Shown piece after piece: positions 3,861 through 49,923 of a stretch of 49,923 nt of DNA. How positions within the stretch are numbered: position 1 is the stretch's first letter; each line of letters starts with the position of its first letter. The DNA lies in contig JAQXGK010000006.1 in assembly GCA_029006345.1 (NCBI GenBank), positions 1-49,923 of the forward strand. The letters run 5' to 3'. Source of the DNA: Bacillota bacterium (lineage in GTDB: Bacteria > Bacillota > Clostridia > Oscillospirales > SIG627). A program made the position numbers and the translations under genes. Under the pieces are notes generated by a model. The model made no database searches and had not been told where the DNA came from. It saw nothing but the letters and a program-made list of their open reading frames with translations.

Positions 3861-3945
3861 TTATTATATACTTTCGAGAGCGGTTAGTCTATAATTTTTT
3901 TATTCAAGGCAACCTGCGGCAGTGCAAACCGGTATCAATAATAAT

Positions 3946-3963
3946 ATTGTCAACGCCGACAAT
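3946..3963. promoter_or_regulatory. putative operator palindrome overlapping -35
   Basis: ATTGTC-aacgcc-GACAAT perfect inverted repeat; -35 TTGTCA 3947-3952, 17 bp spacer, -10 TATAAT 3970-3975. Confidence 0.55.
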
Positions 3964-3991
3964 TTGCTTTATAATGCTCTTGAAAGTATAT

Positions 3992-4004
3992 TTTGTCTGA
4001 CAAA
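3992..4004. promoter_or_regulatory. putative operator palindrome overlapping the RBS
   Basis: TTTGTC-t-GACAAA perfect palindrome with the same half-site as 3946-3963, touching the aaaggag RBS. Confidence 0.5.
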
Positions 4005-4014
4005 GGAGTACTGT

Positions 4015-5577
4015 ATGTTTTCCGAAATGCTTAAAAAATTAAGAACCAAGGCTCACCTGACTCAGGCCGAGACCGCCGAGTGCGTCGGGGTTACAAGACA
4101 GACCGTGCAAAAATGGGAAAACGGAGAAGAGTTTCCGGATGCGGCAAAGCTATGCTCTCTTGCCGGGCTTTTCGGCACAAGCCTTGACGCGCTTATAAAC
4201 CATGACGATTTGCGGACAGATGCTCCGCCGCAGCCGAAATATGACTCTATTAACGAATGGGAGGCGTACTACGCCGCTTTGCCGCTCGAGCTTCGGCAAT
4301 GCACCGAGGAGGGACTCGATGTTCGCCGTATCAAGCCGCTTGTCCGCGAAATCGACCGTCTTGCCTCCGACCGGCACAAGAAGAAGCTTGCCGATACAAT
4401 ATACGACATGATATCGGAGTCGCCGCGGATTTCGGGATACAAATACATTGAGCCGTCGGAATATGCTCTGATTCTGCCGCTGACAAAGCCGCAGAGGCTT
4501 GACTGCGGGCTTTCCGATGAGGAGCTTCTCCGCCGCATAAACGGAGCCTGGACAGGCAGGATATGCGGATGTGTTCTCGGAAAGCCGATAGAGGGCATGA
4601 AGCGCGGCGAGCTAATCGAATTTCTCAGTGAAAACGGCAACTACCCGATACACCGATATGTCAATCTCTCGGAGGTCACTCCCGAGGTTCGCAAAAAATA
4701 TACCTACGGCTTTTGGGGAACCGGCTTCGGCGATACGCTGGACGGCGCGCCGAGCGACGACGACACCAACTACACTATACTTTCCTCCCGGCTTATCGAC
4801 AAATGCGGGTTGGACTTCACAAGCGCCGATGTGGCTCTTCTATGGGTGGAATCGCAGGTCAAGGACGCCTACTGTACCGCCGAGAGAGTCGCGTATCTCA
4901 ACATAATAAACGGCTACGCGCCGCCAGATACCGCTGTCCGCCGCAACCCATACCGGGAATGGATAGGCGCCCAGATTCGCGCCGACTACTACGGATACAT
5001 AAATCCCGGCGATCCGCAGACTGCCGCCGAAATGGCTTTCCGCGACGCCTCTGTATCCCACACAAAAAACGGTATTTACGGCGCAATGCTTGTTGCCGGA
5101 ATGCTGGCGAGCGCATATGTTCTGCCGGATATACCGTCTGTCATACAGGCGGGGCTTGACTGTATTCCGCACACTTCGCGCCTGCACGAATACATTACTT
5201 CCGTGCTCAAGCTCTACAGCTCAGGCGCCGGCTACGATGATTTCGTCGATATGCTGACCCGAGACTTTGACGACCGCGACGCCCACGACTGGTGCCACAC
5301 CGTTTCAAACGCCGCGATAGTATGCGCCTCGCTGCTGTTCGGCGGCGGCGACTATTCAAGGACCGTGAGCCTTGCCGTCAGCACAGGCTTCGACACCGAC
5401 TGCAACGGCGCCACCGCCGGTTCGGTGCTCGGCATGATGAAGGGCGCCGAAATAATAGACTCGCACTGGACGGCGCCGATAAAGGGTGAAATAGACACGA
5501 CTATTTTCGGAATGAGCCGAATGAAAATATCAACGCTCGCGCAAAAAACGCTCTCCCACATCAAGCTGAAAAAATGA
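4015..5577 (+). CDS. XRE-type HTH / ADP-ribosylglycohydrolase (DraG/ARH-like) fusion protein
   Basis: N-term MFSEMLKKLRTKAHLTQAETAECVGVTRQTVQKWENGEEFP HTH; C-term GRICGCVLGKPIEG, DDDTNYT, FDTDCNGATAGSVLG ARH motifs; RBS aaaggag before ATG 4015 (ORF track start 3922 is upstream of this). Confidence 0.88.
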   Translation: MFSEMLKKLRTKAHLTQAETAECVGVTRQTVQKWENGEEFPDAAKLCSLAGLFGTSLDALINHDDLRTDAPPQPKYDSINEWEAYYAALPLELRQCTEEGLDVRRIKPLVREIDRLASDRHKKKLADTIYDMISESPRISGYKYIEPSEYALILPLTKPQRLDCGLSDEELLRRINGAWTGRICGCVLGKPIEGMKRGELIEFLSENGNYPIHRYVNLSEVTPEVRKKYTYGFWGTGFGDTLDGAPSDDDTNYTILSSRLIDKCGLDFTSADVALLWVESQVKDAYCTAERVAYLNIINGYAPPDTAVRRNPYREWIGAQIRADYYGYINPGDPQTAAEMAFRDASVSHTKNGIYGAMLVAGMLASAYVLPDIPSVIQAGLDCIPHTSRLHEYITSVLKLYSSGAGYDDFVDMLTRDFDDRDAHDWCHTVSNAAIVCASLLFGGGDYSRTVSLAVSTGFDTDCNGATAGSVLGMMKGAEIIDSHWTAPIKGEIDTTIFGMSRMKISTLAQKTLSHIKLKK

Positions 5578-5640: not shown

Positions 5641-7167
5641 TTAATCCATAAAATAGGGAATATTATCGGAAACGGTAAGCTTGTACTTTTCGGCATACTG
5701 CTCTTCCCGCTCCTGAAGCTCATTGACGCGCAAGCTCGACTTTGCCGTATTTATCCAGGCTATATCTCCGTCGCCGACAAAATACATTATGTGGTAACCG
5801 TACGACGACTCGACTATGCCGATGTCCCCGACGGCTCTGGCTTCATCGTACAGCCAGTCTTCAAACTCGGCAACCATAGTGCCGCGCACGACATTTTCAT
5901 ACAAGCCGCCGTTTGCCTTAGAACCTGTGTCCTGGCTCTTTTCCTTCGCGACTTCGGCAAAATGCTCCTGAGACTTATCCGTGCCGCTCTCAAGCTCGGC
6001 ATACACCGCGTCGCACGCCGCTTTCGCCTCATCACTGCTTTCATAATTATCAGTTTTAAAGAGTATGTGGCGTACATTTTTTGTGACATATTCCTGCCTG
6101 TATGCGGGCTTGACGATGCAATAAACCGTATATCTGCCGCTGCCGGAATCTATAACCTTCGTATCGCCGGCCTTTCTGTCGCCGGAGGTCCATGCCACGC
6201 GCTCGTTGTCCTCGCCTATCGCCTTTGCGCCCTCGGTAAGTCTTTTTTCGACAAGCTCTTCTATAATCTCATCTGTTATGGGCTCACCCGGGTTTTCTGC
6301 TTCATAGTCGGCAATAAGCAACTTCCTGAGCTCCGAACCAAAGTCCTCTGCAGAGCCGCTGTGCGAAGCAAGCGCCTGCGCCTTTTGTTTTGCATCCTCG
6401 TAAGCGGCAATAACATCGGGATCGGTAGTATCAACCTCATCGGCATCCGTCGAGGTAGAGGTGCCGTCGTCTTCGGGAAGTTGTGCGCTGAAGGTGTAGC
6501 TGTAGTAATCGCAAAGCATGAATTCCGATTTGTTTTCTTCAAAATATTCACGGCATTCCTCATCGGTATAGTCCATGGCTTTATATACGTCCTCATAATA
6601 GGTGTATGCGCGCGTGTACATTTCAAGTGCCGAACGGATAACGTCTTCCGTCACGCCCTTGCCGAAATACTGAATCAAATAGTCGTCGAGAGAGGCACCG
6701 TCGCTCTCTGCCTGTGACTTGATTCCCGAGATAAAGGCATCTATATCCGATGTATTAATCTCCCGGTTTTCCTTGCCCTCTTCCCTTGCGGCTTCGAGCA
6801 GGTGAAGTACATCGGAAGCATTTGTTTTGGCATTATCCAAAAAATAGCTGTACCAGGTCTTGCCCTCGGCATATTCCTGCTCCCTGAGCGACTTGGAGGT
6901 ATCAAGGCCGTAGTACTGCTGATACATACTTCCATACTGGCTCATTTCGGAATAATAGCCGCTGTAAAAGAAATATGAAAGCATGGCGTTGGTAATAGTG
7001 TAATGCTCGCTCGAAACAGCAGCCGCACTGCCGTCGAAAACAGTTTCTTCGGTGGTAATATCGGCGGTAATAACGGCGGTCGTCTTTTCCTCGCTCTTTT
7101 CGGAGCAGGCGGCAAGACAGGTGCAAATCATTATAAAAGAGAGTATTGACGCAATTATTCTTTTCAT
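5641..7167 (-). CDS. PrsA/SurA-like foldase lipoprotein with parvulin (PPIC) domain
   Basis: lipobox LAAC at the N-terminus; VRHILFK...FAEVAKEKSQDTGSKANGGLYENV...SSYGYHIMYF parvulin segment. Confidence 0.85.
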   Translation of the reverse strand: MKRIIASILSFIMICTCLAACSEKSEEKTTAVITADITTEETVFDGSAAAVSSEHYTITNAMLSYFFYSGYYSEMSQYGSMYQQYYGLDTSKSLREQEYAEGKTWYSYFLDNAKTNASDVLHLLEAAREEGKENREINTSDIDAFISGIKSQAESDGASLDDYLIQYFGKGVTEDVIRSALEMYTRAYTYYEDVYKAMDYTDEECREYFEENKSEFMLCDYYSYTFSAQLPEDDGTSTSTDADEVDTTDPDVIAAYEDAKQKAQALASHSGSAEDFGSELRKLLIADYEAENPGEPITDEIIEELVEKRLTEGAKAIGEDNERVAWTSGDRKAGDTKVIDSGSGRYTVYCIVKPAYRQEYVTKNVRHILFKTDNYESSDEAKAACDAVYAELESGTDKSQEHFAEVAKEKSQDTGSKANGGLYENVVRGTMVAEFEDWLYDEARAVGDIGIVESSYGYHIMYFVGDGDIAWINTAKSSLRVNELQEREEQYAEKYKLTVSDNIPYFMD

Positions 7168-7273
7168 CGGAAATCCTTTCGTATTGTTTTTGAGAGGTTT
7201 CGGGTAAAAAAAGCAAATGGAATCGGCGCAACTCCAAACCCCATTTGCTTATTTTCAAAATGTTATGATTTTA

Positions 7274-8881
7274 TTACTCGGAAATTGCAATTAAGGTGCT
7301 GTCATAATTGACCTTGTAAGTATCGGAGAATTCTTTGTCATAATCGGCCATAGCAGCGTTTACCATGGTATTCGTGACCTCGGCCTTCCATGCGATTTCG
7401 CCGTCGCCGACAAAATACATTACATGATAGCCGTAAGAGGATTCAACGATACCGGTGTCACCTGTGGATCTCGACTCGTCGTAAATCCAGTTCTCAAAGG
7501 GCTCTACCATAGTGCCGAGAGCTACATTCTCATACAGACCGCCTATAGCGGCAGAGCCTGAATCCTCGCTCTTTTCCTTTGCGAGAGCGGCAAAGCTGTC
7601 CTCGGTTTTGTCGCCCTTCTCCCACTCTGCAAGCGCTTCCTCAGCCGCTTTCTCGGCCTCCTCGGCGCTTGAGTAACTGGAAGTTTTGAAGAGCATATGA
7701 CGCACATCCTTAGTCACATATTCGTGACGGTATGCGGTCCTGAGCATAAATACCGCTGTATAGCTGCCCTCGCCGTCATCAATTACGGTAGTATCGCCGA
7801 CGGCACGCGCCTCGTCAAAGCACCACTCGGCGATATCGCCGGTTTCCTTCTTCGAGTAATCGGTATGGACCTGTTCTTCCACAAGCTCGGCTATCTCGCC
7901 CTCTGTCTTGGCTGTTTCGTCGTTTTCGTGAGCCTTTGTGATTATCTCGGTAAGAGCTGCTCTGAAGCTGTCCTCATCCTTATTCCCGGCGAGCTTTTCT
8001 GCCTCCTGCTTAGCCTTGTCGTATGCCTCCTGCGTAGCCTGATCAAGCGCAGAATCGGAGGTTTCGTCAGAAGCCGCCGTAGTAGTGGTGGTGGCGGAGT
8101 CCTCGTCAAGCTCTGCCTTGAAGGTGTAGCTTATATAGTCGCAGAAGGTATAATCCGATGCATTTTCGTTAAAGTAGCTCTCAATCTCCTCATCGCTGTA
8201 GTTGAGCGCGTCCTGAAGGCTTTCACTGTAACTGCTTGCAATAAACGCAAGTCTTAAAGCGTCGCGTATATCCTGCTCCTTGATGCCCTTGCCGAAATTA
8301 GCGGCAAGGTACTCATCGACAGTCGTGTTCTGCTCCTCAACAGTCTTATTAAGGGAAGAAACACTGTCGTCCACCTTTTCATTAACGGCAGCTTCGTCAA
8401 TGGCTCCTGCCGCATAAGCCGCCTCGGCGGTATACAGAACACCCTTAACCCTGCTGACCGCGCCGTCTAAAAAGTGCTGATACCATGTGACTCCGTCCGA
8501 GTAATTCTGTTCCTTGAACGACTTGTTGGTATCAAGTCCGTAATACTGCTGATATATCTGACCGTAGGTGCTCATTTCGGCATTAAGGGTGTTCATAAAG
8601 AAATATGTGAACATCGCATTATTTACCGAAAAATGGTCGCTTGAGAGAGCCGTGACCTCGCGAAGCGAGTCGCCGCCGGATGCCCTGAGCTCATCTCTGT
8701 AGCTTTTGAAAATCAAAACGCCTGCCACTGCCACTATCGCAACTGCGAGAACAATGGCAATAACTTTATTTCTCGTCTTTCTCTTTTCGCGTATCTGCCA
8801 CTCCTTGAGCGGCTTTTTCTTAGTCTCTGTCTCTGCAGCGACTGTATTGTTGATCGCCTTGTTTCTTTGCCCTTTTCCCAT
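7274..8881 (-). CDS. membrane-anchored parvulin-type peptidylprolyl isomerase, paralogue of 5641-7167
   Basis: N-term TM VIAIVLAVAIVAVAGVLIF; VRHMLFK...SEDSGSAAIGGLYENV...SSYGYHVMYF; start chosen at MGKGQRN because ggaaagga RBS precedes it (ORF track start 8908). Confidence 0.85.
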   Translation of the reverse strand: MGKGQRNKAINNTVAAETETKKKPLKEWQIREKRKTRNKVIAIVLAVAIVAVAGVLIFKSYRDELRASGGDSLREVTALSSDHFSVNNAMFTYFFMNTLNAEMSTYGQIYQQYYGLDTNKSFKEQNYSDGVTWYQHFLDGAVSRVKGVLYTAEAAYAAGAIDEAAVNEKVDDSVSSLNKTVEEQNTTVDEYLAANFGKGIKEQDIRDALRLAFIASSYSESLQDALNYSDEEIESYFNENASDYTFCDYISYTFKAELDEDSATTTTTAASDETSDSALDQATQEAYDKAKQEAEKLAGNKDEDSFRAALTEIITKAHENDETAKTEGEIAELVEEQVHTDYSKKETGDIAEWCFDEARAVGDTTVIDDGEGSYTAVFMLRTAYRHEYVTKDVRHMLFKTSSYSSAEEAEKAAEEALAEWEKGDKTEDSFAALAKEKSEDSGSAAIGGLYENVALGTMVEPFENWIYDESRSTGDTGIVESSYGYHVMYFVGDGEIAWKAEVTNTMVNAAMADYDKEFSDTYKVNYDSTLIAISE

Positions 8882-9033
8882 ATTATTAATCCTTTCCGAT
8901 TTATTCATGTAAAGTAAGGAATCAAAAAAGGTAAGCCTACGATCCGCGGCGAAGCGGTATCGGTATCAGTAATTTTAACCTATTTGCACTAAAAATTCAA
9001 TATATTTTCGAAACATTTACGGCAATAATATCG

Positions 9034-22708: not shown

Positions 22709-23965
22709 TCATCTCGCGGGCGGCTCGGCAAGCTTATTTACCGCGGTGTAGATATACGACAGCTGATACCATGTCGCGAAATCCACCACTCCGGTAACCG
22801 GCAGTGAAAAGACGCGCTGAAACGTACGGACGCTGTCGGCGGTAGCCTGACCGTATATGCCGTCAACCGCGACCTTACCTATGGCGGGATAATTATTTGC
22901 AATTGAATTGAGCTGAGACTGAACGACCCGTACCGGCTGTCCCGACGAGCCTATGGAAAGCGGACTGCCGCCGTATGACTGCGGCACGCCCTCTACCCGA
23001 GCGGCCTCCTTGAAATAGGTGCTTGCTCCGTAATAGCGGCGGAGTATCTGTATTGCCGAATAGCCCTGATCTCCGAGCGACTTTGAACCCCACTGATGCA
23101 TTCCGACGGCACATTGTACTCTCTTTCCGTCGCAGTACTGCGCGAAAAGCGGCTGAGCGATACCGGGCTGTGTGATGTAGGTGGTGAAAACATCGTCCAC
23201 CACAACCGATATCTCGTCGAAAATGTTCCTGTCAGGAGAAAATGCCTGGTCGTAGGCGGTGGAATTGGTTATGGTGAAATCATACCCCTTCGAGCGGTAC
23301 CATTCGGTATATACGCGGTTGAGCGTAAGAGAAATAATGGCGATGATATTTGCCTTGAGCGTTTCCTCCGGCCAGGTGGCGTATATCTCGCAGCAGGCTA
23401 CATTCTTTATATAGTCTATAAACGGCACGCTGACATTCCGTGCCGAGGTATTTGACGGCGTGCCGAGATGGACGGTCACAAAAGCGGGAATGACCGGCTC
23501 CGGCAATATTACAAGGCCGTTGTCGTTGGGGAGCGGCTTGACCGGATCCTCCTCGATTTTCGGCGGAAACATTCCCCAAAGCGTGTTTTGATCTATGAAA
23601 ACAGTATCGGAAGAAGTAGTCGGAGGCGGCGTAAGCACGCAGGTCTGCTCGGCGTTGCAGGTGGGCAGGATCTGCACGCCCTTGACTCTGAATTCCGAAA
23701 AATCCTTTGCCGTAACAGTGACATTGTATTCGCTGTACGGCTTATTATAGCCCGCCTCCTCCGAGTACTCCTCGGGCGGTGCCGAAAGCTCGACGACCGG
23801 GGTCATCCCCGACGAATCGGTTCTGAGTTCATCCACGACAAACGTATCGTCCCGGTCTGTAATGCGCACAGTCGCGCCGTCGAGCGGCGTAACCCTGTCA
23901 AAGCCCGTTACATTGACTCGCAAAAAGCCGGTATCGGTATAATCCGTGTTCTGAAAATTGTTCAT
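22709..23965 (-). CDS. SleC-like spore cortex-lytic enzyme (SpoIID-like catalytic region + C-terminal PG_binding_1)
   Basis: N-term GFLRVNVTGFDRVTPLDGATVRITDRD...RTDSSGMTPVVELSAPP resembles SleC pro-region; YIKNVACCEIYATWPEETLKANIIAIISLTLNRVYTEWYRSKGYDFTITNSTAYDQAF SpoIID-like; C-term VRVVQSQLNSI...VDGIYGQATADSVRTFQ. Confidence 0.8.
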   Translation of the reverse strand: MNNFQNTDYTDTGFLRVNVTGFDRVTPLDGATVRITDRDDTFVVDELRTDSSGMTPVVELSAPPEEYSEEAGYNKPYSEYNVTVTAKDFSEFRVKGVQILPTCNAEQTCVLTPPPTTSSDTVFIDQNTLWGMFPPKIEEDPVKPLPNDNGLVILPEPVIPAFVTVHLGTPSNTSARNVSVPFIDYIKNVACCEIYATWPEETLKANIIAIISLTLNRVYTEWYRSKGYDFTITNSTAYDQAFSPDRNIFDEISVVVDDVFTTYITQPGIAQPLFAQYCDGKRVQCAVGMHQWGSKSLGDQGYSAIQILRRYYGASTYFKEAARVEGVPQSYGGSPLSIGSSGQPVRVVQSQLNSIANNYPAIGKVAVDGIYGQATADSVRTFQRVFSLPVTGVVDFATWYQLSYIYTAVNKLAEPPAR

Positions 23966-24052
23966 ATTACTTACATTTCCTCTCTTTCCGGTATGTGTCG
24001 GACAAAAGCCGTCATAGAATATAATATGTCAGAAAGAGAGGATTTGATTATT

Positions 24053-25681
24053 ATGGACGAAACGGAAGTAATAGTGAAATACAACGGAGATATTTCCGCC
24101 GTCGCACGGGCAGTCGGCGGAAAAGCGGAAATTCTTAACAGTTCGTACGCCATAGTAACTCTGCCGACGGACAGAATCGAAATGCTGAGGGATTTTCGCG
24201 AGGTGGAATACACAGAACGCGACAAAGTGCTGTATTTTCAGCTCAGGGACGAGCTGGACTCCGCCTGCGTACCGCCCGTAAACTCCGACACCGGGCTCGG
24301 CATCGCAGGGGAAGGCGTGATAGTCGCGATAATAGACTCGGGCATAGACTACACACATCCGGACTTTCGCAATCCCGACGGCAGCACACGCATACTTTAC
24401 ATATGGGATCAGACCGCGCCGTCCGACGGCGCGCAAAAGGGCGCTGTATATACAAAAGATATGATTGACGAGGCTCTTAATTCGGGCGAGCCGTATGCCG
24501 TCGTGCCGAGCCGGGATATATCTGGGCACGGCACCGCCGTAGCGGGCATTGCGGCAGGCAACGGCGCGGCAAGCTCGGGAGCGGAGCGCGGCGTCGCACC
24601 CAAAGCTCAGATAATCGCGGTAAGGCTTGATGAGCGGAGCGGACTCGGCAGTGCGCAGTCGACCGACATAATGCGCGCGCTCAGATTTGTATTCGACCGA
24701 GCGATACAGGAAAACATGCCGCTTTCTGTCAATCTGAGCTACGGAACAAACAACAGTCCGCACGACTCCATGAGCTTATTTGAAAACTTTATAGACGACA
24801 TATCCGGCGAATGGAAGGCCGCCGTTACAGTCGCCGCCGGCAACGAGGGAGACGCAGGGCGCCATTTCAGCACGAAATTAACCGCCGGCGAAGCGTCGGA
24901 CGCGGTATTTTCGCTGTCAGGCTCGGAGGCGTATCTGACGCTGTGGAAAAATTTTGCCGACGATGTGACATTTACGCTGATCTCGCCGTCGGGACAAGCC
25001 GTATTTTCGCTTGCCCGCGGCGGAACCGCCTCGGTATCCCGCGCCGAGGGCGGCGAGGTCAGCGCGCTCTACGGTCTGCCGACAAACTACACCGTGTCGC
25101 AGGAGCTGTTTGTCACATTCCGCGGGATGCAGATAGGCTCTCAGGGGCTGTGGCGGCTTATCATGCATCCGCGCAGCATAGTGGACGGCGAAATTAACAT
25201 ATGGCTGCCGTCAAGCTCCGCCGCCGATTCTGCAAGCGCGTTTCTCGTTCCCGATCCCAACAACACTATAACCAGTCCCGCCACCGCCGGGCGGGTCATA
25301 ACAGTCGCGGCGTACAACTCATCCGTCGGTAACACGGCGCTGTTTTCGGGACGCGGCAGAGAAAACCTGCCCCTCAAGCCGGATATCGCCGCTCCGGGGG
25401 TGAATGTCCTGTCTGCGCGTGCCGGCGGAGGCTACGACCGCTATACCGGCACGAGCTTCGCCGCGCCGTTTGTCACCGGCAGTGCCGCTCTCATGCTGGA
25501 ATGGGGCGTGGTACGCAAAAACGACCCGTTTTTGTACGGGCAAAAGATAAAGGCGTATCTTCGCCGCAGTGCGTCCCGGCGCAGTTTCACGGCCTATCCT
25601 AACAACTCCGAGGGCTACGGCAGGCTGAATTTATGCGGCGCGTTCATAGAGCTGATATCGGAAGGGAGTGATATTCTGTGA
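24053..25681 (+). CDS. Csp-like subtilisin-family (S8) germination protease
   Basis: catalytic motifs IIDSGIDYTHPDF (D), SGHGTAVAGIAAG (H), AAGNEG (oxyanion N), GTSFAAPFVTGSAALMLEWG (S); start placed at ATG 24053, ORF track extension to 23468 overlaps the divergent gene. Confidence 0.88.
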   Translation: MDETEVIVKYNGDISAVARAVGGKAEILNSSYAIVTLPTDRIEMLRDFREVEYTERDKVLYFQLRDELDSACVPPVNSDTGLGIAGEGVIVAIIDSGIDYTHPDFRNPDGSTRILYIWDQTAPSDGAQKGAVYTKDMIDEALNSGEPYAVVPSRDISGHGTAVAGIAAGNGAASSGAERGVAPKAQIIAVRLDERSGLGSAQSTDIMRALRFVFDRAIQENMPLSVNLSYGTNNSPHDSMSLFENFIDDISGEWKAAVTVAAGNEGDAGRHFSTKLTAGEASDAVFSLSGSEAYLTLWKNFADDVTFTLISPSGQAVFSLARGGTASVSRAEGGEVSALYGLPTNYTVSQELFVTFRGMQIGSQGLWRLIMHPRSIVDGEINIWLPSSSAADSASAFLVPDPNNTITSPATAGRVITVAAYNSSVGNTALFSGRGRENLPLKPDIAAPGVNVLSARAGGGYDRYTGTSFAAPFVTGSAALMLEWGVVRKNDPFLYGQKIKAYLRRSASRRSFTAYPNNSEGYGRLNLCGAFIELISEGSDIL

Positions 25682-27381
25682 CAGAGGAGGAAAAAATGCA
25701 GTATGCGGTTTCCCCCTACACCGCAGATTTTGTACTGAGAATCAATCCCTCCACCGAGCGAACTCTCGAGTCGCTTTCGGGTGTGGCGGTCACCAACATT
25801 CTCTCCGGGCGGTACGCCGTATGTTATGTGAAAAACGACATTCTTTCGGACACGATACGGAACGGCGCCACCGACGCGGTAAGCGCCGCCGCAACGGTTC
25901 TCGGCACGCTTGACCGGCGCGACCTCAACTACGCCGGGATCACCGCGGTGCGCTCGGACTCGCTTCTCGGACTGCGGGGGAGCCAAACGATAGTCGGCAT
26001 TATCGACACCGGAATAGACTACACGGCCGCGCCGTTCATACGGGAGGACGGAAGCACAAAAATCATTTCCATTTATGACCAGACGGCCTCCGGGCCGCCG
26101 CCTGCCGGCTTTTATTTCGGGCACGAATACACGCGCGAGGACATAAACCAGGCCCTGAGTTCCGACGACCCTTACACCGTCTTGCCGAGCAGAGACGAGT
26201 CGGGACACGGGACCTTCCTCGCCTCGGTATCCGCAGGGCGCGAGCTCGACGGCTTTTCGGGGGCGGCTCCCGACGCAGAAATAGTCGCCGTCAAGCTAAG
26301 GCGCGCCAAGCCGTATTACCTTACTAACTACATGATACCCGACAGCGCCGAGAACGCCTTCAGCTCGGTTGACATCATGCTCGGTGCGGAATTCATACTC
26401 AACAAGGCGCGCGCCGAGGGCAAGCCGTGCGTAATCTTCATTGGGCTGGGAACAAACCTCGGCAGTCACGACGGCTACTCAATCTTTGAGGAATATCTGA
26501 GCGGCATATCAAGCCAGCGCGGAGTCTGCCTGTGCATTGCGGCAGGCAACGAAACGCGCGCGCGGCACCACGCGCAGGGGCAGATACCCGCCGATCCGGG
26601 CACGGCAATGCTGGACATAAAGGTAGGAACCGAGGGCAGTAATGTATATATGACGCTCTGGAACGAGATATCAGACCGCATTTCCATAGCTGTGCGGAGT
26701 CCCACAGGAGAATTTGTTTCGAAAGTGCCCGCCCGACCGAATCTTACCTATTCATCACGGCTGGTGCTTGAGCGCTCAACCGTCGATATAAGCTACTACT
26801 TCCCCGTCGAGGGTACGGGCAGTCAGCAAACGGTGCTGAGAATACACGACGCAACCGAGGGAATATGGACGGTGACAATGTACGGCGATATTATCCTGAG
26901 CGGCAATTATCAGGCCTGGCTGCCGATAAACGGCTTCGCTCCGCCGGGTCTCGAATTCCTCGCAAGCTCCCCCTACGGCACCGTAACCGTTCCGGCAACC
27001 CTGCCGACCGCAATCTGTACGGGCGCTGTGGACGCAGGCAACGGAAGCCTCTATCCCGACTCCTCCTGGGGTCCCAATCGCAGTAATTTTATAGTTCCCA
27101 CACTGATTGCGCCGGGAGTAGATGTAGCAGGCTACTATCCGTACGGGGAAGGCACCATGAGCGGCACAAGCGTCGCCTGTGCGATAACCGCCGGTGCCGC
27201 CGCGCTTATGCTCGAATGGGGCATAGTACGCAAAAACGACATATCCTTATCAACCTATCAGATCAAGGCATACATGGTACGCGGGTGCCGAAGAAGCGAG
27301 GGACTGACATATCCCAACGTCCGCACGGGCTACGGCGAGCTCGACCTTGCGGAAAGCTTCCGCATTATGAGAAATGTCTGA
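25678..27381 (+). CDS. second Csp-like subtilisin-family (S8) protease, translationally coupled to the first
   Basis: IIDTGIDYTAAPF (D), SGHGTFLASVSAG (H), AAGNET (N), GTSVACAITAGAAALMLEWG (S); GTG start overlaps upstream TGA. Confidence 0.88.
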   Translation: MTEEEKMQYAVSPYTADFVLRINPSTERTLESLSGVAVTNILSGRYAVCYVKNDILSDTIRNGATDAVSAAATVLGTLDRRDLNYAGITAVRSDSLLGLRGSQTIVGIIDTGIDYTAAPFIREDGSTKIISIYDQTASGPPPAGFYFGHEYTREDINQALSSDDPYTVLPSRDESGHGTFLASVSAGRELDGFSGAAPDAEIVAVKLRRAKPYYLTNYMIPDSAENAFSSVDIMLGAEFILNKARAEGKPCVIFIGLGTNLGSHDGYSIFEEYLSGISSQRGVCLCIAAGNETRARHHAQGQIPADPGTAMLDIKVGTEGSNVYMTLWNEISDRISIAVRSPTGEFVSKVPARPNLTYSSRLVLERSTVDISYYFPVEGTGSQQTVLRIHDATEGIWTVTMYGDIILSGNYQAWLPINGFAPPGLEFLASSPYGTVTVPATLPTAICTGAVDAGNGSLYPDSSWGPNRSNFIVPTLIAPGVDVAGYYPYGEGTMSGTSVACAITAGAAALMLEWGIVRKNDISLSTYQIKAYMVRGCRRSEGLTYPNVRTGYGELDLAESFRIMRNV

Positions 27382-41723: not shown

Positions 41724-41741
41724 ATGAACAGTAATTCATAT
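41722..41741. promoter_or_regulatory. ArsR/SmtB-type operator
   Basis: ATATGAA-cagtaa-TTCATAT inverted repeat overlapping the -10; extra TTCATAT half-site at 41751-41757. Confidence 0.75.
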
Positions 41742-41757
41742 GAAAGGATGTTCATAT

Positions 41758-42120
41758 ATGCCGCATTCAGCCAAACACAGCCACGATAATATCGTCGGCA
41801 TGATAAAAAACGAAATGCCGGATGACAATCAGCTCTTTGACCTTGCAGAGCTGTTTCGCATATTCGGCGATACCACGAGAATGAAAATAATGTATGTGCT
41901 TTTTGAGAGCGAGCTGTGCGTCGGAGGCATAGCGGAGCTTCTGAACATGACGCAGTCGGCGGTCTCGCATCAGCTCAAGCTGCTAAAGAGCGCCCGTCTG
42001 GTCGGCAGCCGCCGCGAGGGCAAAACTATATATTATTTTCTCGCAGACGACCATGTGCGCACCATGATAAATCAGGGCAACGAGCATATACTGGAAAGGA
42101 TCAAAAGGGAGGATAAATGA
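41758..42120 (+). CDS. ArsR/SmtB-family metalloregulator
   Basis: LAELFRIFGDTTRMKIMYVLFESELCVGGIAELLNMTQSAVSHQLKLLKSARLVGSRREGKTIYYFLADDHV. Confidence 0.92.
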   Translation: MPHSAKHSHDNIVGMIKNEMPDDNQLFDLAELFRIFGDTTRMKIMYVLFESELCVGGIAELLNMTQSAVSHQLKLLKSARLVGSRREGKTIYYFLADDHVRTMINQGNEHILERIKREDK

Positions 42121-42121
42121 C

Positions 42122-42340
42122 ATGAAAAAGACATACGGCATTCACAATATCGACTGTGCATTTTGCGCAGCAAAAATAGAAGCAGCGGTGGTCAGGCTGC
42201 CCGGAGTCAAGCACGCCTCGCTCAGCTTTTTTGCCGAAAAGCTGACTGTTGAAGCAGAGGAAGCGGACTTCCCGGAAATCGAAAAGCAGATATTAAAGGC
42301 AGTAAAAAAGCTCGAGCCCGACTGCACGGTAGATTTATAA
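42122..42340 (+). CDS. stand-alone heavy-metal-associated (HMA) domain protein
   Basis: 72 aa; HNIDCAFCAAKIEAAVVRLPGVKHASLSFFAEKLTVEA (CxxC). Confidence 0.9.
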   Translation: MKKTYGIHNIDCAFCAAKIEAAVVRLPGVKHASLSFFAEKLTVEAEEADFPEIEKQILKAVKKLEPDCTVDL

Positions 42341-42356
42341 GCAAAGGAGACAGCAG

Positions 42357-44222
42357 ATGAATCGCCGCCAAAAAAAGAATCTAATCAGAATAATTATCTC
42401 CGCGATTTTGCTCTGCGGGCTGCACTTTGTTCCGTTTGGTAAAATACCTAACGGAAACGCCGTCGGTCTCGCAGTCTATCTCGTCCCCTACATTATCAGC
42501 GGATATGACATAATACTGTCGGCAATACGCAATATTCTGAGGGGACAGGTTTTCGACGAAAACTTCCTTATGGCGGTTGCCTCTGCCGGAGCGTTTGTCA
42601 TAGGAGATTATCCCGAAGCAGTCACCGTCATGGTGCTGTACCAGACCGGAGAGCTTTTTCAATCGGTCGCGGTCGGAAAAAGCCGGAAGAGCGTAGCGGC
42701 GCTGATGGATATCCGTCCGGACAGTGCTACGGTAGTGCGTAACGGGGTCGCGGTCACCGTAAGCCCCGACGAGGTGGAGGTCGGCGAAACCATTATCATC
42801 AGTCCCGGCGAGCGCATCCCGCTGGACGGAAGGATAACAGAAGGATCGACCACCGTAAACACCTCCGCACTGACAGGTGAAGCGCTGCCGCAGGAGCTGG
42901 GGCGCGGTGACTGCGTTATCAGCGGCACAGTCAACCTTTCGGGCGTTATCCGCGCCGAGGTCACTTCGTGCGCCGCAGACAGCACAGTCGCACGCATACT
43001 CGACCTCGTGGAAAACGCAACCGCAAAAAAAGCCAAAAGCGAAGCCTTTATCACCCGTTTTGCCCGCATTTATACTCCCGCGGTGGTTGCAGCGGCAGTG
43101 CTTCTCGCCGTCCTGCCGCCTGTCTTTACCGGACAGCAATTCGGCATATGGCTCAACCGTGCGCTAATTTTTCTCGTAGTGAGCTGTCCCTGTGCCTTGG
43201 TCATTTCTGTTCCGCTGTCCTTTTTCGGAGGTATCGGCGGCGCATCAAGGCAGGGCATACTCATCAAGGGCTCGACATACATTGAGGTGCTGTCGCGCGT
43301 AAAAACAATCGTTTTCGACAAGACGGGAACACTCACCGAAGGCGTTTTTGAAGTAACTGCTATCCACCCGGAAAAGATAACCGAAGCCGAGCTGCTGGAT
43401 CTTGCGGCGGCTGCAGAAAGCTTTTCCACTCACCCGATAGGCGAATCGATAGTAGCCGCTCACGGCGGCCACGTCGACCGCGCGGCGCTCGGAAGTGTGG
43501 AGGAGATATCCGGGCTCGGAATAATAGCCGATTACAGGGGACACCGCGTAGCCGTCGGCAACCCGCGCCTGATGGAGCGAGAGAGCGCCGAGTGGCACGA
43601 ATGCCGCACTGTCGGAACCACCGTCCACATTGCTCAGGACGGCATATACATGGGTCATATCGTAATTTCCGACCGCATCAAATCCGATTCCGCCCAAGCG
43701 ATAAAGGCGCTCCGGTCGCAGGGTGTAAAAAGGGCGGTCATGCTGACCGGTGACAGCGAGGCTGTAGCGGCTGATGTCGCGGCCAAGCTCGGCCTGGACG
43801 AATTTCACGCGGGACTTCTGCCGGCCGACAAAGTCTCTATTGCCGAACGCCTGATAGACGAAAAAAATGCCGGAGAAGCGCTCGCATTTGTCGGCGACGG
43901 CATCAACGACGCCCCGGTGCTCGCCCGCGCCGACATAGGAATAGCTATGGGCGCGCTGGGCAGTGACGCGGCGATAGAGGCGGCGGATGTCGTGCTGATG
44001 GACGACAAGCCCTCAAAAATAGCTGCGGCAGTTGCATGTTCGCGAAAGACCATGCATATTGTTTATGAAAACATCATCCTCGCGCTGACGGTGAAATTCG
44101 CCGTGCTTATACTGAGCGCATTCGGAATCACGGGAATGTGGCTTGCAATATTTGCCGATGTCGGCGTGATGATGCTGGCGATAATCAATGCGGTGCGTAC
44201 ACTCAAAACACCAAGTAAATAA
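42357..44222 (+). CDS. P1B-type heavy-metal ATPase (Zn/Cd/Pb-like)
   Basis: TGEALP, SCPCALVISVPLSFFGGIGGASRQGILIKGSTYIE, DKTGTLTEG, GDGINDAPVLARADIGIAMG; TM7 Lys and TM8 FADVG of the P1B-2 type. Confidence 0.95.
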   Translation: MNRRQKKNLIRIIISAILLCGLHFVPFGKIPNGNAVGLAVYLVPYIISGYDIILSAIRNILRGQVFDENFLMAVASAGAFVIGDYPEAVTVMVLYQTGELFQSVAVGKSRKSVAALMDIRPDSATVVRNGVAVTVSPDEVEVGETIIISPGERIPLDGRITEGSTTVNTSALTGEALPQELGRGDCVISGTVNLSGVIRAEVTSCAADSTVARILDLVENATAKKAKSEAFITRFARIYTPAVVAAAVLLAVLPPVFTGQQFGIWLNRALIFLVVSCPCALVISVPLSFFGGIGGASRQGILIKGSTYIEVLSRVKTIVFDKTGTLTEGVFEVTAIHPEKITEAELLDLAAAAESFSTHPIGESIVAAHGGHVDRAALGSVEEISGLGIIADYRGHRVAVGNPRLMERESAEWHECRTVGTTVHIAQDGIYMGHIVISDRIKSDSAQAIKALRSQGVKRAVMLTGDSEAVAADVAAKLGLDEFHAGLLPADKVSIAERLIDEKNAGEALAFVGDGINDAPVLARADIGIAMGALGSDAAIEAADVVLMDDKPSKIAAAVACSRKTMHIVYENIILALTVKFAVLILSAFGITGMWLAIFADVGVMMLAIINAVRTLKTPSK

Positions 44223-44305: not shown

Positions 44306-45973
44306 TCAGCCTATGTAAACCCTGCGTTTAAGAAGCGTTACATCCTTTGAAGTGAGTTTGCCGTCGGAATTTATATCCGCTTTGTCAAAATCACTTCCGG
44401 TAAATGTCACAAGACCCGCAACCGCCTTTTTCAGCAATGTGATATCGGCGGCGGAAACAGTGCCGTCCTTATCCAAATCTCCTTTAGAGTAGCATGTATA
44501 GGCTCTCAAAACTACATTTCCGTAGCCTTTGCTGTTGCTGTCGGTCCAAGTTGACTTATTACTTGAATAATAACTCTGTCCGGGCTCGCTGTGGGCATAT
44601 GTTCCGGTCTCTAAGGGAAGATTTGCCTCCCCCTCGCCAACAGACAGCGTTATCACCACCGCATATCTTTCTCCCGGGCTGAGTGAAACTTCGGTGCGCA
44701 AATCTACAGTATGAAATCCGCGGTACTGCTCTGTTCCGGACACGGTCGCGGACGAAGCAAGAACGCCGGACGTTGGATCTGCCGAGCTCTCCGGAATATC
44801 CGTATAAATCTCTATCTTATACTGCGTATTCATATTGACGGTGTTAAAAGAAACCGACGTGAGCTTTTCGTAATCCTTACTGCGGAAGATATTTGCACCG
44901 TAGATAGTGCTCCTATTTTGGTAATAAATACTGCTGCCGCCGTAATATCCGGTATATTGGTATTCATTGTCGAACTCCTGCATGTCGGCCTCATATGACA
45001 CAAAGCTGCCAAGCGTCATATCGCTGTACGACAGCCAGAAATACCCGCTGTTGCCCCAGCTTGTTCCCCAGCTGTTACGGCAGAGCCAAGCGCCGTTTGC
45101 TGAAGGGCGATAGCCGGACTTGAAGTTGTCCTTTGAATAATTATCATTCCAGCCGACTACGATGACCTCGTGATTTGTGTCGTAATCGTAATCACAGTAA
45201 TACGAGTAATTCCCGGTGTTTAAGTACTGCTTGTCGGAGTAATAGCTTGTTACCACCGCGCCGGTATTCATAATTGCGGATTTTATCGAGTTTCTGTCGC
45301 CTGCATCGATATTATTCTCCTGCGTCAGGCGTGCGTATGTTCTGTAGCGGTCGCTCTCGCTGTAGTTGCCCATCTTTGAAAGGTCATACGGATAAAACGG
45401 GAAGGATGACTCCAGCTCCGCTCCCGAACCGCGCGCCAAAGCCGAAGTTGCAGTCCAATGATTGCCGCCGCTTTCATACGGCGATTGCTTTGTAAAGCCG
45501 TCTCCGCGGGTCGGATCGTTCGTATCGGACACATAGCTTCTCTGTGCGAACCATACGAGATGCGCCTCGGAAAAGTCGGTATTTGACGACGTTCCCAAGC
45601 CCTTTTTCAGAAAGCTCGACTCCAGCGCACCTATTGCGGCAAATGCCCAGCAGTTTCCGGATTTGCCCTGATTCCTGACACCGGTAACCATTCCGTAGTT
45701 TCTAAGGTCATACGACGCCGGATACACCTGCGCCGAGTTATACGGCTCCGATTTGCCATCGTCTATGAAAACCTCATTTCCGTACTCATCGACATACTTT
45801 ACATTTACAAGGCCGTATTCGCTCGGCTCCGATTCCACCGCATACACGGCGCAGACATCTGCTCCGGAATCCAAGGGCTCCGCCGAAACGATTTGAGGCA
45901 ACTGTGCATCCGCGCTGCAGACTAAAGCTGCCGCAATAAACAGGGCTGCGGTTTTTCCGAATCTATATTTCAT
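44306..45973 (-). CDS. secreted papain-family (C1A) cysteine protease with C-terminal type I dockerin
   Basis: signal peptide; NQGKSGNCWAFAAIGALE (Gln/Cys), TNHEVIVVGW (His), CRNSWGTSWGNSGYFWLSY (Asn); dockerin repeats GDLDKDGTVSAADITLLKKAVAG and ADINSDGKLTSKDVTLLKRRVYIG. Confidence 0.93.
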   Translation of the reverse strand: MKYRFGKTAALFIAAALVCSADAQLPQIVSAEPLDSGADVCAVYAVESEPSEYGLVNVKYVDEYGNEVFIDDGKSEPYNSAQVYPASYDLRNYGMVTGVRNQGKSGNCWAFAAIGALESSFLKKGLGTSSNTDFSEAHLVWFAQRSYVSDTNDPTRGDGFTKQSPYESGGNHWTATSALARGSGAELESSFPFYPYDLSKMGNYSESDRYRTYARLTQENNIDAGDRNSIKSAIMNTGAVVTSYYSDKQYLNTGNYSYYCDYDYDTNHEVIVVGWNDNYSKDNFKSGYRPSANGAWLCRNSWGTSWGNSGYFWLSYSDMTLGSFVSYEADMQEFDNEYQYTGYYGGSSIYYQNRSTIYGANIFRSKDYEKLTSVSFNTVNMNTQYKIEIYTDIPESSADPTSGVLASSATVSGTEQYRGFHTVDLRTEVSLSPGERYAVVITLSVGEGEANLPLETGTYAHSEPGQSYYSSNKSTWTDSNSKGYGNVVLRAYTCYSKGDLDKDGTVSAADITLLKKAVAGLVTFTGSDFDKADINSDGKLTSKDVTLLKRRVYIG

Positions 45974-46006
45974 ATCATCAATCCCTCCTTAACACCGGGG
46001 TGTCGG

Positions 46007-47344
46007 TCATTCGCCGAGCACGTCACGGCAGAAGACCATCGTCATTTTAGCGGCTTCGGCGCGGGACGCATAGCCCCGCGGGTCGAGTTTATTTCCCGGC
46101 TTGCCGGAGATAATTCCGTTACCGACCGCCCATTCCATAGCTTCCCTTGCCCAGTCGGACACACTTGCTCCGTCCGCAAACGACGAAAGGTCGTCCGTAT
46201 TTGACGGAAGTCTTCCGAGACTGCGGGCGTATCTGTAAAGCATTACCGCGAGCTGCTCACGGGTTACATTGTCAAAAGGCTTGAATGTGCCGTTGGGCAA
46301 GCCCGTAACTATATTTTCGTGCGACGCCCAAGTGATGGAGTCAGAATACCACTGTCCGCTATCTACATCCGAAAAACCGCTGCTTCCGCTGACGGCCGGT
46401 AAACCCGCGTGGTTATACAGAATTCTGCTCTCCATAGCGCGGCTGAAATTAACCTGCGGCGAGAATGTAATTCCGGAGGTGCCGTTCATCAGGCCGTGCG
46501 AATATACATATCTGACCGAGGCTTCATACCATGCGCCGTCGGGAACATCGTCAAACGGGAAATACTCGGTTACTTCACCGAAGTTAATGGTAATTGTCTG
46601 TTGCTTCTGCGGTACGGAGCTGTCGGCGACCTTGATTGTAGCAGTGCCCGGCGCTCTCATGGCAGTAGGCGTACCGCTTATTACTCCTCCGGAGCTTATG
46701 GTGAGTCCTGCAGGCAAGCCCGTCGCGGTAAAGGTATAGGGCTTAAGGCCGCCCGAAACGCCGCCTGAAACATTCTTTGACTTAATCGGCCTGTCAATAG
46801 ACATCTTCGGCAGGTCGTATGAGCTTGAATCTATGAATACAAGCGGAGATATAACCGAAACACTTGCCTGTTTAACCGAATATGTATAGTTTCGCGAGGC
46901 GTCCTCGTTGTAATACTCATCAATCGTCAACGACAGGCCGAGAGTGCCCGACGCGCCGCTTTTTACCCTGAAACCAACGCTTATGAGAGCTCCTGCCGCA
47001 AGATAATCGCCGTTTCGGTAATCGGCGGCAGATGCGGTATACATTACCGTTCCCGAGCTCGGCCGTGACAGCGTCTCATCCAATACCGCGCCGGTTGAGC
47101 CGACGGAGGTTTCCGTAACTTCAAGCTTGGCAGAATCATATGTCAGACGGAAATCCAAACCTCCGACTCTGCTTTTGTCACTGTCCAGCTTAACCGTGAC
47201 AGTGAAAACCTCCCCAATATCGACATTGCTTTTGCTCGTCTGCACCGAAAACGAGCTGTCATATGCGAGAGCGTCCGACGGTACAAACGCCAGCACCATG
47301 ACCACGCAGACAATAGCGGCCGTGAGCCGTTTTACAGTTTTCAT
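46007..47344 (-). CDS. cell-surface anchoring protein: cohesin domain + putative Ig-like domain + three SLH domains
   Basis: signal peptide; SKSNVDIGEVFTVTVKLDSDKSRVGGLDFRLTYDSAKLEV cohesin-like; LPAGLTISSGGVISGTPT Ig-like; three SLH repeats; start chosen at MKTVKRL after ggaggaag RBS. Confidence 0.85.
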   Translation of the reverse strand: MKTVKRLTAAIVCVVMVLAFVPSDALAYDSSFSVQTSKSNVDIGEVFTVTVKLDSDKSRVGGLDFRLTYDSAKLEVTETSVGSTGAVLDETLSRPSSGTVMYTASAADYRNGDYLAAGALISVGFRVKSGASGTLGLSLTIDEYYNEDASRNYTYSVKQASVSVISPLVFIDSSSYDLPKMSIDRPIKSKNVSGGVSGGLKPYTFTATGLPAGLTISSGGVISGTPTAMRAPGTATIKVADSSVPQKQQTITINFGEVTEYFPFDDVPDGAWYEASVRYVYSHGLMNGTSGITFSPQVNFSRAMESRILYNHAGLPAVSGSSGFSDVDSGQWYSDSITWASHENIVTGLPNGTFKPFDNVTREQLAVMLYRYARSLGRLPSNTDDLSSFADGASVSDWAREAMEWAVGNGIISGKPGNKLDPRGYASRAEAAKMTMVFCRDVLGE

Positions 47345-47587
47345 TCTCTTCCTCCGTTGCATAAATCAAATCTGCCGTGACTTAATATACTTTCATTTTT
47401 GTCCGTATGTATATGTATTTTTTCATAATTTCGGTTTTTGTCAAGAAAATTCGATTGCGCCGACGGCCGTATCTTTATTCCCGCAAAATCGGCCGATATA
47501 TCGGATATAAAATTTTAATTCACATAATTTGCGAAACGGCGCAAATAATACCATTAAACAATTTGCAATTCAAGAGGAGATTTATAT

Positions 47588-47785: not shown

Positions 47786-48727
47786 CTATACTCGCACAAC
47801 TTTTTCGGTTATGTCGATCAGTTCTTCAAGTCCGGAAGATATTTGTTCAATGTCCTCATATATCTCTGATTCATAAACTTTGTCTAAATTATAGTCCGAA
47901 GCATATTCCTCTACGGTATAATAAACGCTGTTGCTGTTTGGAAAGCCGAATAAAGTTATTCGACCGATATAATTTTCATCAGCAAAAACTTTTAATACAT
48001 TTCCCGGCAGTAAGGATTCAGTTTCAATAATCGCTCTCCGAATGGCATATTTCTGTTTATGTATCGGAATATTACATTTCCCTGCTTTTTGTGCAAAATA
48101 AAAGGTTACACCTATTATTGCTACTTCTACGGCGCACATAACAGCAAAAATCATCCAGTCGATTGTGCTGAATTCATTTAGTTCCTTTTCGCCGGTTAAA
48201 AATACCGTAATGAAGATATTGATAAACATTAAAGCCAAACCGAAACAAACCTGTATCATGTATTTCTTTTTTTCAGATTTTAGTATGTCAAGGGACTCAA
48301 TCATTTCTTTTGGAGACTTGCCTGCCTCAAATATCATATTTCTGAGAATCTCAGAGCAAAGAACAAAAGGATTTTCAATTCCAAATATTGTGTGACATTT
48401 ACCGTCTTTTAATTGAATACTCAATGTGTTCATCTGCCCTAAGGCAAAATCGACATCCGAAACACGACAGTCGATTTTTCCGAAGTAATGATATTTTCCC
48501 CTTATGTGTCCATTATCAATTGAAAGATATGCCTTAAAATTAAAAAACAAACATATGACACTGAACAGACATATAATCAAACCAAAAACGATGCCTGTCA
48601 ATAGATTGCTAACCGTAGCTTCGCTGTCTACGTACCCTATAAAGATAAATAAGCCGATTAAAATAAGTCCGCAAAGCAGTGTTACTATATTCCAAATTGA
48701 TTTCTTCTTAAAGACGGCCTTAATCAC
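47786..48727 (-). CDS. hypothetical multi-pass membrane protein (PH-like domain suspected)
   Basis: 313 aa; two pairs of TM helices; AT-rich. Confidence 0.65.
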   Translation of the reverse strand: MIKAVFKKKSIWNIVTLLCGLILIGLFIFIGYVDSEATVSNLLTGIVFGLIICLFSVICLFFNFKAYLSIDNGHIRGKYHYFGKIDCRVSDVDFALGQMNTLSIQLKDGKCHTIFGIENPFVLCSEILRNMIFEAGKSPKEMIESLDILKSEKKKYMIQVCFGLALMFINIFITVFLTGEKELNEFSTIDWMIFAVMCAVEVAIIGVTFYFAQKAGKCNIPIHKQKYAIRRAIIETESLLPGNVLKVFADENYIGRITLFGFPNSNSVYYTVEEYASDYNLDKVYESEIYEDIEQISSGLEELIDITEKVVRV

Positions 48728-48885: not shown

Positions 48886-48907
48886 CACAAATTAAAAGTG
48901 ACTGTAA

Positions 48908-48925
48908 TATACCTTTTCGGGTATA
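48908..48925. promoter_or_regulatory. HipB-type operator O2
   Basis: TATACC-ttttcg-GGTATA. Confidence 0.75.
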
Positions 48926-48942
48926 TTATTTTCGTAAATCTC

Positions 48943-48971
48943 TTGACATTATACCTTAAAGGGTATATAAT
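48943..48971 (+). promoter_or_regulatory. consensus promoter of hip operon with operator O3 (48950-48967) in the spacer
   Basis: TTGACA-N17-TATAAT; TATACC-ttaaag-GGTATA lies in the spacer and reaches the -10. Confidence 0.8.
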
Positions 48972-49005
48972 ATGTGTATTAGACGAAAATAGGGAGATAA
49001 TATCT

Positions 49006-49209
49006 ATGAATCCGATCGCCGAATTTGTTAAAAAAAGCAGAAGAGAAGCGGGACTTACGCAAGAGGAATTCGCCATGCGTTCGGGACTGGGGCTGCGTTT
49101 CGTCCGTGACCTTGAGCAAGGCAAGACAACCGTTCGTATGGATAAGGTAAATGTCGCTCTCGGTATGTTCGGCATGGAAGCCGCACCTGCACGAAAGGAA
49201 AATAGATAA
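49006..49209 (+). CDS. HipB-like XRE antitoxin/repressor
   Basis: VKKSRREAGLTQEEFAMRSGLGLRFVRDLEQGKTTVRMDKVNVALGMFGM. Confidence 0.88.
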   Translation: MNPIAEFVKKSRREAGLTQEEFAMRSGLGLRFVRDLEQGKTTVRMDKVNVALGMFGMEAAPARKENR

Positions 49210-49538
49210 TGGAAGCATTCAGAACCGCATTCGTTTATGTACGAAATGAATTTGCCGGAATACTTGCCGAAACCGATTCCGGTTATTCATTTTCGTATGA
49301 TGATGATTATTTAAAATCGGATCATGCTGCTGCCGTGTCTTTGACCCTTCCTTTAAGCGAAGAGCCGTACAATTCACGAACACTTTTCCCTTTCTTTGAC
49401 GGGCTGATTCCCGAAGGATGGCTTTTAAATGTTGTCAGCCGAAACTGGAAGATAGACACAAAAGACCGTTTCGGATTATTGCTTGTTGCCTGCAAGGACG
49501 CTATCGGCAATGTGAGCATTACGGAGGAAAAGATATGA
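49209..49538 (+). CDS. HipS-like stand-alone HipA N-terminal domain protein
   Basis: VYVRNEFAGILAETDSGYSFSYDDDYL...LPLSEEPYNSRTLFPFFDGLIPEGWLL; starts at the last base of hipB. Confidence 0.85.
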   Translation: MEAFRTAFVYVRNEFAGILAETDSGYSFSYDDDYLKSDHAAAVSLTLPLSEEPYNSRTLFPFFDGLIPEGWLLNVVSRNWKIDTKDRFGLLLVACKDAIGNVSITEEKI

Positions 49539-49923
49539 ACTGTTTTTGCTGCGGAAAGCCGCTGAAAACCGAAAATGATAACGGCTGGCATAAGGCGTGT
49601 ATCAAGCGTTTTTTCGGTACTGCAAATATTCCCGAAATTGAAATAGATGAAAATACCTTGGAATCCCTCGCCGCTCAGAGCACAAGTAAAGGCCTTACAG
49701 TTCCGGGGGTGCAGAAAAAGCTGTCATTGCATTTGAGCACGGACAATCACAATCCCCGCCTTACTTTGGTGAATTACCCTACGGGATATATCTTAAAGCC
49801 GCAGGTGAAAGAATTTGAATGCTTGCCCGAAGCCGAGCAGCTTGTTATGACGATGGCAGACGCCACAGGCATTTCCACCGTGCCCCACGCACTGATCAAA
49901 AGCGGAGATAATCTTGCGTATAT
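49535..49923 (+). CDS. HipT/HipA-like Ser/Thr kinase toxin, N-terminal part (truncated by window end)
   Basis: ATGA overlap with upstream stop; MNCFCCGKPLKTENDNGWHKACIKRFFGT...STSKGLTVPGVQKKLSLHL...YILKPQVKEFECLPEAEQLVMTMADATGIS. Confidence 0.88.
   Translation, partial: MNCFCCGKPLKTENDNGWHKACIKRFFGTANIPEIEIDENTLESLAAQSTSKGLTVPGVQKKLSLHLSTDNHNPRLTLVNYPTGYILKPQVKEFECLPEAEQLVMTMADATGISTVPHALIKSGDNLAY

Follow-up and report, generated by a model that had tools for sequence, protein, structure and literature searches.

The cell-surface protein OlpA of Clostridium thermocellum carries one cohesin together with SLH repeats and is part of a cellulosome in which many enzymes bear dockerins. OlpA and OlpC, each with a single type-I cohesin, are cell-surface anchors. 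Being tethered to the cell wall, a protein with such a cohesin can keep a dockerin enzyme directly at the surface (PMC12811415). Peptidases can be joined to a surface cohesin by a dockerin in the same way. The NlpC/P60 peptidase RflaF_05439 of R. flavefaciens sits on ScaE (PMC3573020, PMC5301203), C. thermocellum has an S8 double-dockerin peptidase (review PMC12484212) and dockerin-borne peptidases are predicted for the Limousia mucinolysome (PMC12997984). All three are accessories of large multi-enzyme systems, and the descriptions consulted mention no operon pairing with a dedicated anchor. When a genome has cohesin and dockerin genes together, a multi-enzyme complex resembling the cellulosome is commonly assumed; a 2026 survey shares this view and counted both domains in 4,333 genomes from the human gut (PMC12997984). 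Cwp84 of Clostridioides difficile is a surface-associated C1A protease that cleaves SlpA and has an acidic S2 pocket (Asp318, Asp320) for lysine at P2 (PMC4089489).

OlpA-type anchors and dockerin-borne proteases in cellulosomes are thus known. The locus described here differs in three respects: it is a stand-alone protease pair with no larger system detected in the genome, its cargo is of the Cwp84 type, and anchor and cargo are encoded by paired genes. It lies in a stretch of 49,923 nucleotides (hereafter the window) from a draft genome of 1.66 Mb in 118 contigs, 94.4% complete. Its two genes probably encode a surface display module of two components, in which one anchor carries one protease. 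Their features, all on the minus strand, are as follows.

47417..47444 (-): promoter candidate 5' of gene 1, sigma-70-like TTGACA-16-AAAAAT with TG; a consensus match only
46007..47344 (-): gene 1, secreted anchor protein with cohesin, He_PIG and three SLH repeats
47264..47344 (-): signal peptide of the anchor protein, by inspection, MKTVKRLTAAIVCVVMVLAFVPSDALA
46868..47248 (-): cohesin domain, by Pfam, leave-one-out profile and fold match of a model; the sole cohesin detected in the genome
46583..46789 (-): He_PIG Ig-like spacer, by Pfam
46436..46558 (-): SLH repeat 1, profile match
46247..46375 (-): SLH repeat 2, profile match
46049..46183 (-): SLH repeat 3, profile match
45974..46006 (-): intergenic gap of 33 bp, with a strong Shine-Dalgarno sequence (aaggaggg) ahead of the protease start
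44306..45973 (-): gene 2, secreted C1A protease with lectin-like domain and dockerin, 555 aa
45023..45721 (-): Peptidase_C1 domain, Pfam E 4.9e-25, with Gln102, Cys108, His268 and Asn300
44495..44947 (-): Cwp84-type lectin-like domain PF18560, Pfam E 1.1e-28
44318..44485 (-): type-I dockerin with calcium loops DLDKDGTVSAAD and DINSDGKLTSKD; the sole dockerin detected in the genome

Both open reading frames were recovered at these coordinates, in agreement with the sequence-only reading, which had described two minus-strand genes about 33 bp apart (exactly 33 bp here). The anchor protein measures 445 aa from the ATG at 47344 and 451 aa from 47362, the mechanical start of the reading frame; because a Shine-Dalgarno sequence (cggagg) stands before the ATG at 47344, this start, also the upstream end given earlier, is preferred. 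Sigma-70-like sites number seven in the region against 4.9 expected. On one side of the pair lies a P-type metal ATPase gene in convergent orientation (42357-44222), on the other an unrelated gene of low GC (47786-48727). A foreign origin of the two genes was considered and set aside, their GC contents of 0.53 and 0.50 being similar to that of the window (0.507). In line with the sequence-only reading, which had seen none nearby, a scan of 20 large window ORFs detected no carbohydrate-active enzyme.

Elsewhere in the window, the ATPase follows an ArsR/SmtB regulator and is of the zinc/cadmium type (41740-44222), while the gene at 47786-48727 encodes 313 aa at a GC of 0.347, against 0.507 for the window, and has no Pfam or NCBIfam match. 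Two tandem S8 subtilases (23468-27381), the first matching the CspB prodomain of Csp-type germination proteases, two successive PpiC-type peptidyl-prolyl isomerase proteins (5641-8908) and an ADP-ribosylglycohydrolase with an N-terminal helix-turn-helix domain (3922-5577) are also encoded. At 48898-49921 a helix-turn-helix gene is followed by further reading frames, which presumably resemble HipA.

In the anchor protein, Pfam reports Cohesin (PF00963) at E 4.5e-9 (37.1 bits against a cut-off of 24.1), He_PIG at E 1.4e-9 and three SLH repeats at E 1.1e-33. A leave-one-out profile built from 24 other cohesins of the order matched the window cohesin at E 3.6e-13 (search space of 1,600 proteins, as for the dockerin profile below). 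A single-sequence phmmer search of the anchor protein against PDB returned SLH domains only and no cohesin, and a cohesin match in PDB required a profile or a structural model. The model of the domain, made from a single sequence (pLDDT 68.8, pTM 0.66), was compared with PDB by Foldseek: the top 20 matches were all cohesin entries, the best having a probability of 1.00, the OlpA and OlpC cohesins (3ul4, 4dh2) were among the structures matched, and adhesins and pilins ranked lower (4igb, 4hsq). With a TM of about 0.6 and an rmsd of 4 to 9, the model supports the fold and is not an atomic model. Judged by a profile score above cut-off and a fold predicted with modest confidence, the N-terminal domain is a cohesin. 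The cohesin-like domain, putative Ig-like spacer and three SLH repeats read from the letters alone are thus all borne out, and the protein has the OlpA-type combination of one cohesin, SLH repeats and a signal peptide, the last recognized by inspection.

In the product of the second gene, a signal peptide and a propeptide-like stretch precede the C1A protease, after which come the lectin-like domain and the dockerin. Among solved structures it is closest to Cwp84 (4ci7), with E 1e-37 across 390 residues covering protease and lectin-like domain, and cathepsins match far less well. As in Cwp84, this lectin-like domain comes after the C1A protease, which places the protein in the Cwp84 type, and the catalytic residues match, with Gln102, Cys108, His268 and Asn300 intact and Asn293 aligning with Cwp84 Asn287. 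Unlike Cwp84, which has cell-wall-binding domains in its own chain, it gave no Pfam match to cell-wall-binding repeats and has the dockerin in their place. The two also differ in the S2 pocket: in a local sequence alignment, not a structural one, the acidic Asp318 and Asp320 of Cwp84 correspond to Phe324 and a gap, the region reading Ser323, Phe324, Val325 and the gap, and given these missing acidic residues, a preference for lysine at P2 is not expected. A model of the protease from two aligned sequences was set aside (pLDDT 32.5).

The dockerin matches Dockerin_1 (PF00404) at E 3.9e-12 (46.6 bits against a cut-off of 22.9) and, at E 3.8e-14, a dockerin profile built without it. It is closest to the XynY dockerin of C. 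thermocellum (1OHZ chain B, E 2e-8), and in the alignment with it both F-hand calcium loops (DLDKDGTVSAAD, DINSDGKLTSKD) are complete and followed by helices. The recognition positions are AA and SK where the C. thermocellum dockerin has Ser-Thr pairs, so that binding specificity is not readable from the alignment. The earlier description of a C1A protease with an intact Gln/Cys/His/Asn set and a C-terminal two-repeat dockerin agrees with these results, while the lectin-like domain between the two had been overlooked. All four profiles proposed for checking (Cohesin, Dockerin_1, SLH and Peptidase_C1) scored above their cut-offs in HMMER searches against Pfam.

Only one cohesin was detected in the genome by Pfam, and still only one with a broader 25-sequence profile at E<=1; likewise, only one dockerin was detected even at E<=1, carried by the protease. 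This count of other cohesins and dockerins had been called for by the sequence-only reading, and the result agrees with its proposal of a one-enzyme module rather than a polysaccharide-degrading complex: neither a scaffoldin with several cohesins (Pfam and broad profile) nor several dockerin-bearing polysaccharide-degrading enzymes were found in the 94.4%-complete genome. With one cohesin and one dockerin detected, the genome is without a multi-enzyme scaffold, and each domain is the other's only candidate partner, the main caveat being that the missing 6% could hold further partners. If both are single among about 1,600 genes, the chance of same-strand adjacency is about 6e-4. In contrast to OlpA and its cellulosome, the window offers a single gene pair with protease cargo. 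Among 396 genomes of the order, the exact combination of a protease-dockerin gene with a cohesin-SLH gene was found in this genome only, without a close ortholog. When GTDB genome contigs were searched for close relatives orthologous to the protease, one locus was recovered, and it has no dockerin match. We found no literature joining a dockerin with a Cwp84-type protease in this manner, although coverage was incomplete, with most subscription papers outside it.

Given these observations, we infer the following arrangement. Both proteins would be exported, and the SLH protein would attach non-covalently to secondary cell-wall polysaccharide and hold out its single cohesin on the Ig-like spacer. 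The C-terminal calcium-dependent dockerin of the C1A/lectin-like protease is predicted to bind this cohesin, one anchor carrying one protease without a scaffold or a carbohydrate enzyme, and proteolysis would take place at the cell surface. Anchoring through SLH is plausible from the gene content, since the genome encodes three other SLH proteins and a CsaB-like pyruvyl transferase. The latter is a PS_pyruv_trans protein fused to a glycosyltransferase, with PF04230 above cut-off and TIGR03609 (the CsaB model) at 187.9 bits, below the cut-off of 213.1. The four SLH proteins hold 12 repeats in total, and the other three are an LRR_5 protein, a polysaccharide deacetylase and a 1,055-aa protein without any other Pfam domain. 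Indirect support comes from two relatives in another family (G110 and G097), in which a Cwp84-type protease with its lectin-like domain is fused directly to SLH. Judging from their domain content, a surface-held Cwp84-type protease would thus be reached elsewhere within one chain, as a covalent counterpart of the tether. The fusion loci (L086:1330-3399 and L102:928-2967) are single-chain counterparts of the pair in the window.

Cohesins were detected in 19 of the 22 genomes of the family and dockerins in 20, the window's genome included. In a profile scan of the fetched regions, adjacent dockerin and cohesin genes were detected in 18 further genomes, which represent seven families of the order; this number is not a frequency estimate, since the regions had been picked for cohesin, dockerin or homology matches. 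The paired genes are on the same strand and 6 to 41 bp apart, except for one pair overlapping by 17. The window has the cohesin gene first, opposite to the other pairs. The commonest cargo is a SagB-like glucosaminidase with a dockerin, SH3_3 in most proteins and often a cadherin-like domain; the NCBIfam SagB glucosaminidase model matched the two proteins tested at E 4e-12 and 1e-20, below its cut-off. The partner encoded downstream has a cohesin and a cadherin-like domain, and the complete proteins end in a strongly hydrophobic stretch and a tail, the stretch being read as a putative transmembrane helix. Several of these cohesins fall below the Pfam cut-off and were detected solely with the order-specific profile. 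Such pairs were located at L146, L147, L148, L149, L150 and L151 (family f1), L196, L199 and L201 (f14), L200 (f16), L198 (f10), L197 (f20) and L202, L203 and L204 (f23); none was found in the window's genome.

The SagB-type pairs have the look of a cohesin-dockerin tether devoted to a peptidoglycan hydrolase, and no literature on glucosaminidase-dockerin proteins with cadherin-like cohesin partners was found within an incomplete coverage. They share with the window adjacent genes for a dockerin enzyme and an anchored cohesin, but differ in their peptidoglycan hydrolase cargo, transmembrane anchor and dockerin-first gene order. A second type, in genome G165, pairs a 204-aa secreted dockerin protein with a protein of cohesin and three SLH repeats 41 bp away; among whole-domain relatives of the window cohesin, the cohesin of this protein ranks first (33% identity, E 5.2e-12). 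At this locus (L136:5155-8857), an SLH-only gene precedes the two in the row. In the third type (genomes G010 and G011), the dockerin proteins have no recognized enzyme domain, and two of them also carry a cohesin of their own. That adjacent pairs recur with other cargo, a point absent from the sequence-only reading, adds weight to the argument for pairing, and the window's pair stands less alone.

A C1A/lectin-like protein occurs in 31 of the 396 genomes of the order at E<=1e-30. Besides that of the window, dockerin-bearing members are found mainly in family f23, with one in f19, and no cohesin gene adjoins them in the regions fetched. In a tree of 36 protease domains, most of the f23 dockerin-bearing proteins form one supported group that excludes the window protease, which is itself without a supported placement. 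One genome has two tandem C1A/lectin-like dockerin proteases adjoining a CHAP-SH3-dockerin protein (G262, L129:6375-11016). The window's own genome encodes a second Cwp84-type protease (L072:1-3141), 40% identical, with LRR_5 repeats in place of the dockerin.

The dockerin-bearing relatives without a cohesin gene beside them would fit the view that the two genes are adjacent without being partners, with the dockerin serving the scaffoldin of another species or the cohesin capturing dockerin enzymes that neighbours release. That the genome has exactly one of each, the 33-bp spacing and the adjacent pairs in 18 other genomes argue against this, and we regard it as improbable. That the domains do not bind at all, the beta-sandwich being an adhesin or spacer and the dockerin a calcium-stabilized C-terminal cap, draws on the adhesins and pilins lower in the fold search (4igb, 4hsq); however, the first 20 fold matches are all cohesins, both calcium loops are complete, and a single cohesin and a single dockerin side by side would be a coincidence, making this very improbable. 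It is also rather doubtful that the pair is what genome reduction has left of a larger ancestral complex of cohesins and dockerins, an explanation that concerns origin and is compatible with the tether. Several genomes of the same family do have many dockerins (for example, 18 in G004 and 12 in G005) and multi-cohesin proteins, but single adjacent pairs recur with differing cargo and anchors, which looks like a design in use.

Points that weigh against the tether are the differing recognition positions of the dockerin, the finding of the exact pair in this genome only, the draft state of that genome and the reversed gene order. With the one-anchor, one-protease tether retained as the preferred arrangement, its substrate can be considered. 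Proteins at the cell surface are the most likely targets of the protease. These may be the cell's own S-layer or SLH proteins, as with Cwp84 on SlpA in C. difficile (PMC4089489), which would alter the substrate alone and leave the tether as proposed. The close relationship to Cwp84 across protease and lectin-like domain is consistent with this, as are the three other SLH proteins as potential substrates, one of them of 1,055 aa. Against it stand the absent acidic residues of the S2 pocket and the LRR_5 repeats, instead of an anchor, on the genome's second such protease. We therefore give S-layer maturation appreciable weight without favouring it and, since the acidic residues are absent, lean slightly towards extracellular or foreign proteins as putative substrates over strict Cwp84-like maturation.

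Here the cohesin-dockerin interaction seems to serve as a surface tether for a single enzyme. As a stand-alone pair, it runs against reading cohesin and dockerin genes as a multi-enzyme complex. Together with the adjacent pairs of 18 other genomes, it suggests that one-to-one tethers for enzymes not acting on carbohydrates may be present in such genomes instead. Its recurrence with different cargo lifts the pair above a mere curiosity. Tentatively, the pairing may be a general one-enzyme tethering device in the order, organized in dedicated two-gene modules whose cargo includes proteases, peptidoglycan hydrolases and small surface proteins. Such modules would be largely unconnected with cellulosomes and might even represent a stage that preceded multi-enzyme scaffolds. 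If such genomes do hold one-to-one tethers, the annotation of cohesin and dockerin domains would change, minimal natural cohesin-dockerin pairs would be on offer, and the question of scaffoldin origin would gain a testable route.
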